Of a stretch of 34,477 nucleotides of DNA, positions 25,995 to 27,676 are shown in pieces. Source of the DNA: an uncultured Opitutia bacterium (lineage in GTDB: Bacteria; Verrucomicrobiota; Verrucomicrobiia; Opitutales; Coraliomargaritaceae); assembly GCA_937136395.1 (NCBI GenBank), contig CAKZOI010000014.1, forward strand, positions 1 through 34,477, given 5' to 3'. The notes below the pieces were generated by a model. That model saw nothing but the letters and a program-made list of their open reading frames with translations, was not told the origin of the DNA and ran no database searches. Each line of letters opens with the position of its first letter. Positions within the stretch are counted from its first letter, which is position 1. Made by a program: the position numbers and the translations under genes.

Positions 25995-26417
25995 CTAGAG
26001 TTCGTTGAACTCACTCACGGGGATGTAAAAACAAATGTCCCGATCCTTCGGGTCACCCCGGTCGAACCGTCCACCGATCCCCATATTCCACTTCTCCAAT
26101 CCTGCAAACGGGATGAAGCCAGTGAAATCCGTCCAGCGCACAACCAGAAAAGCCTGCCGTCCAAACGACTGCAAAAGATAGTTTGCAGACGCGACCTTGT
26201 GCGCGTTAATCATCATCGTGTCGTATTTGTCCCGCTTGAATGTGCGGCACTTAATTTCAAAGAAGCTCGACACGTCGCCGTCACGCAAGCCCGCATAGTC
26301 GAGCCGGTAGACCGGGTTCAGCTTCTCCATAACCAAGCCGTGCTTCTCGCCAATGAACGCAGCAACCGCTTGCTCATTGGTTAAGTCGTTTTGGTTTTCA
26401 TACTTGGGCACGTTCAT
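25995..26417 (-). CDS. PD-(D/E)XK nuclease-like protein, 140 aa
   Basis: Contains the nuclease core RLDYAGLRDGD (Asp40) followed by FFEIKCRTF (Glu54-x-Lys56) and a helical NAHKVASANYLLQS, then AFLVVRWTDFTGF. This order is characteristic of the PD-(D/E)XK superfamily. Overlaps the methyltransferase 3' end by 20 bases, so the two are cotranslated. Could be a recombination or DNA-degradation nuclease, or a restriction-like partner of the methyltransferase. Confidence 0.7.
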   Translation of the reverse strand: MNVPKYENQNDLTNEQAVAAFIGEKHGLVMEKLNPVYRLDYAGLRDGDVSSFFEIKCRTFKRDKYDTMMINAHKVASANYLLQSFGRQAFLVVRWTDFTGFIPFAGLEKWNMGIGGRFDRGDPKDRDICFYIPVSEFNEL

Positions 26418-27267
26418 ACCTCATAATTGTCTTGCCAATTATTTCTGGGATTTGCGGGACGACCGCGTTACCCAGTGCTTTAATTCTGTGTGACCGATTG
26501 GAAACCCCATTAACCACTCGACCCACGTCGGGTTCAGTTGGCCATCCGTTTCCGAAGTCCGTGCCGCTTCCCTCAGATTGCTGCGATATGTCTCCGAACC
26601 CATATACCTGTTCAGCACCGCTCCCTTGTGGTCGCTGGCTGCCGGGGTCGGCCACATCTTGTGCGGCGGCGGATAAGCCACCTGCTCTCTTAGTGTTGAG
26701 TGGCTTGTCCTGCCCTTCCGATTTCTCTGGTATTGCTTCTTCAACGCCTCCTCGCTGCGCGCTGGGAGCGCGTCCATCGTGTTGGGAGTTAGCCACAATC
26801 CAGACCCGGTCTCGTTTGTGCGGGGCATCGACACTGCACGCTGGAATAACAAACGGCCAGACGGTGTATCCTTCAGCCTCCAATGTAGACAATACTTCGT
26901 CGAGACCGAGTTTAATGTGTCCACTAACATTCTCGCAAATGACCCATCGTGGCCGCAACTCTCGTATAAGTCGATGCACTTCTGGCCAGAGATGTCTTTC
27001 GTCTTCTTCGCCTCTTTGACGACCTGCGACACTGAAAGGTTGGCACGGGTATCCGCCGACAATGACGTCGGGAAAAATTCCATCTGCTCGGAGTTGCTCT
27101 CCGGTGAGTTGTTTGACATCACGATAGATTGGTGTGTCTGGCCAATGCCTTCTAAGGACTGCCCTTGGGTAGTCTTCGATTTCGCAGAACGCGACTGTTT
27201 CAAATCCGGCTTCTTCAAGTCCAAGGCTAAATCCTCCTATGCCGCTGAATAAATCAAGCACTTGCAT
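26398..27267 (-). CDS. DNA (cytosine-5) methyltransferase, 289 aa
   Basis: Motif I DLFSGIGG (5-12) for SAM binding, motif IV GGYPCQPFS (71-79) with catalytic Cys75, motif VI ENV (112-114), motif VIII-like RDRVWIVA (152-159) and motif X-like ALGNAVVP near the C-terminus. Short target-recognition region (about 165-250), rich in Ser, Gly and Gln. Length is at the low end for the family. GGGAG before the ATG. Likely protects phage DNA against host restriction; the sequence specificity cannot be read from the sequence. A long second-frame ORF is nested within it. Confidence 0.95.
   Translation of the reverse strand: MQVLDLFSGIGGFSLGLEEAGFETVAFCEIEDYPRAVLRRHWPDTPIYRDVKQLTGEQLRADGIFPDVIVGGYPCQPFSVAGRQRGEEDERHLWPEVHRLIRELRPRWVICENVSGHIKLGLDEVLSTLEAEGYTVWPFVIPACSVDAPHKRDRVWIVANSQHDGRAPSAQRGGVEEAIPEKSEGQDKPLNTKRAGGLSAAAQDVADPGSQRPQGSGAEQVYGFGDISQQSEGSGTDFGNGWPTEPDVGRVVNGVSNRSHRIKALGNAVVPQIPEIIGKTIMRYERAQV
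26439..27224 (-). CDS. nested overlapping ORF in second frame of the methyltransferase gene, 261 aa
   Basis: A 786-base open frame lies entirely inside the methyltransferase gene, shifted by one base. It starts with TTG (27224) eight bases after a perfect AGGAGG; later ATG starts also exist. The predicted protein has family-like stretches: CLHWRLKDTPSGRLLFQRAVSMPRT, then GLWLTPN, then MWPTPAASDHKG, then LNPTWVEWLMGFPIGHT near the end. From memory, similar proteins recur in phages and bacteria next to or over C5 methyltransferase genes. They may be real dual coding, or database translations of a conserved enzyme in the wrong frame. Confidence 0.45.
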   Translation of the reverse strand: MDLKKPDLKQSRSAKSKTTQGQSLEGIGQTHQSIVMSNNSPESNSEQMEFFPTSLSADTRANLSVSQVVKEAKKTKDISGQKCIDLYESCGHDGSFARMLVDTLNSVSTKYCLHWRLKDTPSGRLLFQRAVSMPRTNETGSGLWLTPNTMDALPARSEEALKKQYQRNRKGRTSHSTLREQVAYPPPHKMWPTPAASDHKGAVLNRYMGSETYRSNLREAARTSETDGQLNPTWVEWLMGFPIGHTELKHWVTRSSRKSQK

Positions 27268-27676
27268 CTAAGTTCTCCCGGATGACAGCGACGCCGTAGT
27301 CCCAGTCAGCTGCGAATGGATACAGCTCGGAGCCGGTGCCGACCCACTGAATGCCGATAGCACCAAGCGGCAAAACAATGCGAGGCTTGTGCCGGTCGTA
27401 TTTATAAATGAGACACGGCAGCAAACTTTCCTCGGCCTCAGCCGCAGTCAATACCTGCTGCCACCAATCCTCTTGGTGCCACGTCCCAGCACCGTTGACA
27501 GCGTAGGATTTGCACTCGATTACAAATGGAGGCAAGACCAAGTCGCCTTCGTCTTTGACTTGGTATTGAGACAAGTTCCGGCGCAGCGGAACGTCAAGGC
27601 CGAGGTCTTCGCTCAGGGTGTTTGCCACCCAGCGTTCAAACGCGGCACCTTTGTTACGACTTTTACGACCGGACAT
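27254..27676 (-). CDS. PD-(D/E)XK endonuclease, Holliday-junction-resolvase-like, 140 aa
   Basis: Begins MSGRKSRNKGAAFERWVANTL (Glu14), then DEGDLVLPPFVIECKSY (Asp45, Glu54-x-Lys56), then a WWQQVLTAAEAE helix and LIYKYDRHKPRIVLPL. This G-x2-FER / GDL / EIECK order is that of Hjc/RecU-type resolvases and related phage nucleases. Probably processes branched DNA before packaging or during recombination with the YqaJ-type exonuclease. Overlaps the methyltransferase start by 14 bases. Confidence 0.8.
   Translation of the reverse strand: MSGRKSRNKGAAFERWVANTLSEDLGLDVPLRRNLSQYQVKDEGDLVLPPFVIECKSYAVNGAGTWHQEDWWQQVLTAAEAEESLLPCLIYKYDRHKPRIVLPLGAIGIQWVGTGSELYPFAADWDYGVAVIRENLDASA

Follow-up and report, generated by a model that had tools for sequence, protein, structure and literature searches.

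Genes A and B, which lie in overlapping reading frames of the window (the whole stretch of 34,477 nucleotides analysed here, positions 1-34477 of contig C14 in a genome of 3.18 Mb), very probably encode the two subunits of one phage C5-cytosine methyltransferase. Gene A, in frame 0, would provide the large catalytic domain with motifs I-VIII and X joined by a disordered linker. Gene B, read in the +1 frame from its own start, would provide the small domain, which consists of a recognition-like LPTP module and motif IX. The two chains may, like those of M.EcoHK31I, assemble into an active enzyme in which A binds AdoMet and methylates cytosine and B reads the site; expression of A alone is therefore predicted to fail. 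The window also encodes a terminase, a head-tail adaptor and major head and tail proteins, so A and B are part of a prophage or phage, which would probably gain protection from host restriction. The preliminary description had reported a frame of 261 codons, shifted by one base and covering 90% of A, and this frame is present at an offset of +1 (Table 1).

Table 1. Features of the nested gene pair and its neighbours (positions in the window).
Feature	Position	Strand	Remarks
Gene A, C5-cytosine DNA methyltransferase large subunit (putative)	26398..27267	-	289 aa; motifs I, IV, VI, VIII, X; without motif IX
Gene B, nested ORF in the +1 frame of A, putative small-domain subunit (LPTP recognition-like module and motif IX)	26439..27224	-	261 aa from TTG
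AGGAGG, 8 nt before the TTG of B; inside A motif I codons	27233..27238	-	sequence
A motif I (DLFSGIGG)	27232..27255	-
A motif IV (GGYPCQPFS), catalytic Cys, intact in the window	27031..27057	-
A motif VI (ENV)	26926..26934	-
A motif VIII region (HKRDRVW)	26800..26820	-
A residues 169-239, predicted-disordered filler facing the LPTP module of B	26551..26763	-	AF2 model, sequence
B LPTP-type module MWPTPAASDHKG (WPTP in the window)	26622..26657	-
B segment RLLFQRAVSMPRT...GLWLTPNTMD, core conserved across the B family	26772..26855	-
B motif IX LNPTWVEWLMGFPIGHT	26487..26537	-	profile aligns with motif IX of single-chain methylases
A motif X (GNAVVP)	26455..26472	-
PDDEXK_15 gene, upstream neighbour of A	27254-27676	-	its end overlaps the A start by 14 nt
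PDDEXK_14 gene, downstream neighbour of A	25995-26417	-	its start overlaps the A end by 20 nt

Gene A contains motifs I, IV (PCQ), VI (ENV), VIII and X of the C5-cytosine DNA methyltransferases. The preliminary description had credited A with motifs I to X, but motif IX and a folded recognition region are missing from A and are supplied by B. In other words, A does not carry motif IX and the TRD in the same chain as the catalytic motifs; motif IX was found in the +1 frame. The match of A to Pfam PF00145 (E 3.5e-44) covers residues 1-171 only and its TIGR00675 match ends at residue 192. The best PDB relatives are M.HhaI variants, which align over residues 2-165 (motifs I-VIII), and hhalign of A against the C-termini of single-chain methylases gave no convincing match (E 0.22). 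In the AF2 model the core and the last helices are well folded, and residues 169-239 and 245-263 have a pLDDT below 50. Foldseek aligned this model with M.HhaI at an rmsd of 1.4 A over 166 alignment columns; A is thus predicted to fold like the large domain alone of M.HhaI. The A sequence 'DVADPGSQRPQG' is the frame-A reading of the same DNA that encodes 'MWPTPAASDHKG' in B. The 'VAD' repeats in relatives of A may be readings of the LPTP codons of B, and the same origin is suggested for the low-complexity 'VAD' stretches in A.

The +1 frame is open beyond chance. When A was shuffled among synonymous codons, this frame stayed open for at least 265 codons in 1 of 20,000 shuffles, and the median longest run was 90 codons. 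The same test was applied to 176 unique genes out of 191 complete ones; p was 0.01 or lower for the +1 frame in 154 of the 176 related genes and for the +2 control in 1 of the 176. A chance ORF is ruled out by these shuffles. Another explanation is that B is an untranslated ORF which is open and looks conserved merely through the conservation of A. The negative +2 control speaks against this, as do several of the results that follow.

Stops interrupting B in close homologues would speak against a second coding frame, as the preliminary description had pointed out. The B match lies inside an open +1 frame of A in all 83 of the B-found loci listed, which comprise 80 viral contigs (the best 80), two loci of the same bacterial genome and the window (L081 is the window sequence). 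One of these, L082, the second copy in that genome, has one TAG inside its B match in one count. The A frame itself is interrupted in 3 of the 83 (L050, L064 and L068). Loci found with A alone show the overlap in 119 of the 120 listed, and some of their contigs are also in the B-found set. The exception, L162, carries the nested A/B pair twice in tandem (L162:211-1922), with the overlap in both copies; its second A copy begins to match the profile at position 77. A tblastn search with B matched 120 phage records, and B also occurs in bacterial contigs of many phyla according to record titles (best 80 kept, 330 of 373 stretches confirmed). These locus counts are samples, since several scans give the matches listed or the best 80 and not totals. 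The alignments A3 and A4 hold 70 and 68 hand-picked rows of B-found loci, with near-duplicates and rows with a broken A left out.

Loci were classified by motif IX, which faces the variable region of A, because, where B overlaps A motifs IV-VIII, similarity to B can reflect A instead. A frame-blind search for motif IX followed by a gap of 18-79 bases and motif X listed at least 239 distinct sites. Among these, motif IX is in the +1 phase relative to X in 181 and in frame in 58, and the third phase does not occur. An untranslated B would not be expected to leave motif IX solely in phases 0 and +1 among the sites listed.

Substitution patterns indicate that the second frame is constrained as protein. 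In 31 independent pairs (65-97% identical in A), divergence at A codon positions 1/2/3 is 0.057/0.023/0.241 outside B and 0.164/0.091/0.157 inside B. Differences at 4-fold sites of A in these pairs amount to 173/606 outside B compared with 306/2701 inside. For the window and L096, the divergence at the three positions is 0.21/0.13/0.17 over 257 codons inside B. Among nested genes (48 pairs), 4-fold differences number 262/805 in codons 1-40, 227/1635 in codons 75-155, 129/1236 in the TRD region, 17/439 at motif IX and 152/505 from X to the end. In the TRD region of nested genes it is A position 1, equivalent to B position 3, that changes most (0.305 vs 0.187 and 0.223, the last being A position 3); this divergence peak at the third position of B is again contrary to an untranslated ORF.

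A natural control comes from TRD-only genes, in which motif IX is back in the A frame (9 pairs). Silent change in these genes is lowest in the TRD region (23/168), drops mildly in codons 75-155 (84/280 vs 60/136 in codons 1-40) and is not lowered at motif IX (25/62) or from X on (36/80). This shift in silent sites between nested and TRD-only genes is the strongest argument for translation of B as protein. The suppression follows the extent of B and vanishes at motif IX when IX sits in the A frame, which conservation of A alone would not explain. Selection on A alone, the other refutation that the preliminary description had named, therefore does not fit; within the extent of B, silent change in A is suppressed. 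Its proposal of dual coding is supported by the shuffles, the open +1 frame in relatives and this suppression. An overlapping protein-coding gene should be open beyond chance and show protein-level constraint in the second frame, and both were found for B. Judging from these patterns, B is a genuine gene nested in A and under protein-level selection. Three points suit an untranslated B: its profile scores over motifs IV-VIII can partly reflect A, it has no Pfam or NCBIfam family, and suppression is weak near its proposed N-terminus in the group of the window. Given the evidence above, this explanation is extremely unlikely.

The position at which B starts is less certain than its existence. 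The AGGAGG eight bases before a TTG that had been noted earlier is present, but its bases also encode GIGG of A motif I, and A therefore partly forces the Shine-Dalgarno (SD) match. Among B frames, 248 of 339 have a start codon with an SD match of at least 5 bases (73% vs 49% in controls), and these starts peak at A codons 50-59 (97/248), which suggests separate initiation. When the B frame begins at A codon 35-70 (203 genes, 49 pairs), silent change falls at the beginning of B, from 145/294 in codons 1-14 and 231/495 in codons 16-45 to 110/463 in codons 60-80 and 207/1439 in codons 80-150. In the window-like genes, with a B frame already open before A codon 20 (117 genes, 26 pairs), silent change is weakly lowered up to codon 80, with 70/185, 96/323, 79/240 and 186/821 in the same four intervals. 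Because the AGGAGG is in motif I and the drop before codon 80 is weak in window-like genes, TTG as the exact start of B is uncertain.

The weak suppression before codon 80 would also suit programmed frameshifting, in which ribosomes pass from A to B after motif VIII and then back, producing one chain with all motifs. Single-chain relatives do exist, and one +1 shift after motif VIII would complete the enzyme in nine loci described below where both IX and X are in the +1 frame. However, the class to which the window belongs would need two opposite shifts. The part of B over motifs IV-VIII would go untranslated, yet silent sites are suppressed there (227/1635 vs 262/805 in codons 1-40), and the frequency and the peak of SD-preceded starts also argue for initiation within A. 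Frameshifting is therefore unlikely, and a separately initiated B is preferred.

The preliminary description had left the partner protein without an identity; B is most likely the small-domain (recognition and motif IX) subunit of the same methyltransferase as A, to judge from its motif IX and an arrangement like that of M.EcoHK31I. B carries motif IX (LNPTWVEWLMGFP) and an LPTP module, which in single-chain relatives lies between VIII and IX. The WPTP module of B corresponds to the LPTP repeats between VIII and IX of VRedHorse, FreddyB, L335 and L413. A profile of B aligned with the C-termini of single-chain methylases over 18 columns (E 7.5e-11), covering motif IX only. Of six single-chain methylases tested, the B HMM matches five (E 3e-11 to 1e-6). 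A second HMM, built from 12 split second ORFs, matches B of the window (1.1e-20) and all 6 single chains (1e-51 to 2e-41). B is thus homologous to the VIII-IX-(X) region of relatives with a single chain or a split enzyme. This homology is against B as an unrelated protein. From its position, the LPTP module would be the part that reads the DNA target.

No Pfam or NCBIfam family matches B of the window, and a Pfam scan of 73 B members gave 8 families with one member each (best E 0.029). A PDB sequence search with B gave 0 matches at E<=10. The model of B alone has low confidence (pLDDT 61.9, pTM 0.34), and comparison of this model with known structures found no match with Z>=5. A poor fold may be expectable for a chain that needs A, yet it is no evidence of binding. 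B could instead be a separate functional protein, such as a regulator or an anti-restriction factor, that merely overlaps A; its function is putative and automatic family labels are no evidence. This is very unlikely, since B has the motif IX that is missing in A and is carried by C5 methyltransferases, and other relatives have this module fused to X or to the complete enzyme.

B matches the PHROG profile phrog_1008 (E 3.5e-28), whose label 'DNA methyltransferase' is misleading for B because it has no catalytic motif. A second subunit hidden in the other frame means that annotation either misses B or names it a methylase despite the lack of a catalytic site. In Pseudomonas phage PMG1 (L094) the B frame alone is annotated, as 'DNA methyltransferase', and the catalytic A frame is unannotated. 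The record of Paenibacillus phage Shelly annotates a 'g55 internal gene', so its depositors noticed the ORF. Stretches of B had earlier been likened to free-standing phage proteins; in the phage records examined, they belong to nested B frames or to second ORFs of split methylases and not to genes standing on their own.

The position of the frame boundary varies among relatives. The N-terminal half of A was found in 413 deduplicated loci out of 535, all of them relatives of the A of the window. The frames of motifs IX and X relative to I-VIII, with a relaxed motif IX, are (1,0) in 340, (0,0) in 35, (1,1) in 9 and other in 5, and they were not found in 24. A strict motif IX gives 322, 17, 4, 4 and 66, respectively. 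The LPTP module of the 340 nested loci is in the +1 frame in 306, in frame 0 in one and not seen in 33. In the 35 (0,0) loci it is in the +1 frame in 31, in frame 0 in two, in both frames in one and in neither in one. Since the module is still in the +1 frame in those 31, B there is the recognition module alone. In the nine (1,1) loci, A ends before motif X and the +1 frame contains IX and X, with the LPTP module in 6 of the 9. The mycobacteriophages Relief, Koko and Winget have (1,1)-like second ORFs that share 23, 80 and 209 nt, respectively, with the first; the two ORFs are each annotated 'DNA methylase'. The five odd-frame loci (of 413, relaxed motif) are perhaps sequencing frameshifts. 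L511 and L514 have IX in the frame of I-VIII and X in another frame, possibly as a result of a frameshift or as a further architecture.

The +1 frame of a relative can therefore hold the TRD only, TRD and IX, or TRD, IX and X, or everything can be in one frame. On a quick tree of 104 rows with weak support, these arrangements change 11 times among five labels (shuffled mean 43.7, minimum 4), so the frame boundary has probably moved more than once. Movement of the small domain between reading frames in this phage C5 methyltransferase family is well supported. The loci, whose frame boundary falls at one motif or another, are natural replicates for studying the evolution of two enzyme subunits under dual coding. 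Single-chain methylases are common outside the relatives of the A of the window; 1459 phage records matched a single-chain query, and in 318 the match extended over at least 80% of the query. A scan with a single-chain protein gave 2 loci, one of which was the query itself.

The gene for the small (beta) chain of M.EcoHK31I is said to have been described by Lee et al. in 1995 as nested in another frame of the large-chain gene, as is seen for B in the window. Two-polypeptide C5 methyltransferases on record in PMC3404938 are M.AquI and M.EcoHK31I, and the two-chain pair of the window is thus itself of a known type. M.EcoHK31I (YGGCCR) has a large chain with I-VIII and X and a small chain with IX (PMC3404938), and A and B divide the motifs in the same way. 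In that source the TRD of M.EcoHK31I, a predicted one, is assigned to the large subunit, whereas the recognition-like LPTP module of the window is in B; the two systems are likened by their descriptions. M.AquI is described there as two polypeptides split in the variable region, with IX and X both in the small chain. This split resembles the (1,1) loci and the mycobacteriophage pairs. The window differs from M.AquI in that A contains X and the second gene, B, is nested and not sequential; a small chain with both IX and X was found, in the +1 frame, only in 9 of the 413 loci. VRedHorse gp68 and FreddyB gp73, which are mycobacteriophage single-chain methylases, have the order I-VIII, LPTP module, IX and X and are homologous to the B module, but everything is in one frame. 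In the open-licence literature, no descriptions in print were found of the phage-wide spread, of a recognition-like module in B or of the frame-boundary series; no such case was found in the portions consulted of the GeneTack and PRFect papers.

Some relatives, in sublineages other than that of the window, have a further unusual feature in A. In certain viral contigs, motif IV is lengthened by six bases, which separate its Pro codon from the catalytic Cys codon. When the search pattern accepted any hexamer before the Cys, it gave 54 distinct sites, 43 of which are in A-type methylase frames. The hexamer is a stop followed by a YYN codon at 43/43 methylase sites, and a stop comes first at 0/11 other sites. 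Carriers include L155, L064, L068, L333, L367 and most of L546-L610. A recount from all loci collected, with a pattern that required the stop, also gave 43 sites, a largely overlapping set. In this recount the stops are TAA in 25, TGA in 12 and TAG in 6, and the following codon is CTN in 20, CCN in 16, TCN in 7 and TTN in 0. The Pro codon before the stop is CCG in 20, CCT in 14, CCA in 9 and CCC in 0; in the intact genes collected it is CCC in 57, CCT in 45, CCA in 22 and CCG in 19. Clustering of the 43 sites leaves 39 groups at 90% identity and 11 groups at 70% identity. L520 (- strand), with a CT-type motif IV outside the pattern, reads Pro-TAG-TGA-Cys and is an exception to the stop and YYN rule.

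These genes remain constrained beyond the stop. A continues for 148-415 aa in 42 of the 43 and for 41 aa in one, and beyond the overlap with B, starting at motif X, it is selected in its own frame (0.158/0.105/0.337 over 190 codons in 12 pairs). The +1 frame is open over 80 codons in 41 of the 43; 19 of the 43 have IX in the +1 frame and X in frame 0, the rest being unclassified. A quick tree of 42 such genes and 51 intact ones has 11 changes of the trait, at least 4 of them forced by well-supported branches.

The favoured reading is a candidate ribosomal hop, in which a Pro-tRNA would leave CCN, skip the stop and re-pair on YYN, joining the catalytic Pro and Cys. YYN without TTN is the set that a GG anticodon pairs using at most one G-U, which fits such a hop; true Pro codons make up 16 of the 43 landing codons. 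Rival readings are a +1 shift and readthrough, by which the Cys would be preceded by two additional residues. The stretch may also be a scar, as intein-like inserts sit at the same Pro/Cys point in two phage methylases (L544:286-2385 and L612, before position 701); these inserts are taken to be intein-like from their hallmarks. An upstream SD-like sequence is present in 28% of the genes with the stop vs 65% of intact genes, and no downstream structure was seen at the sites (mean z 0.26). Part of the Pro-codon bias may be explained by the coding needs of B. The pattern had 0 matches in 387 genomes of the phylum of the window and was absent from the five phage records examined for it. No description of a natural stop-hop was found in print in the open-licence literature. 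According to a 2016 review (PMC5009743), no natural in-frame stop-hops were known; if real, the hop would be a naturally occurring example of something for which that review had none. The combined picture, a phage C5 methyltransferase family whose small domain moved between frames of the large-domain gene and which also acquired a stop-hop in some sublineages, is tentative and somewhat less than an even prospect.

The two PDDEXK nuclease genes that flank A and B in the window were considered as a restriction partner. They were dropped, as their relatives occur in just 3 and 2 of 80 related loci (flanks of unequal length), and no conserved restriction partner was seen in the flanks of these 80 loci. 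The same bacterial genome contains a second, diverged nested methyltransferase pair (L082) at G000 contig C78:5302-5691.
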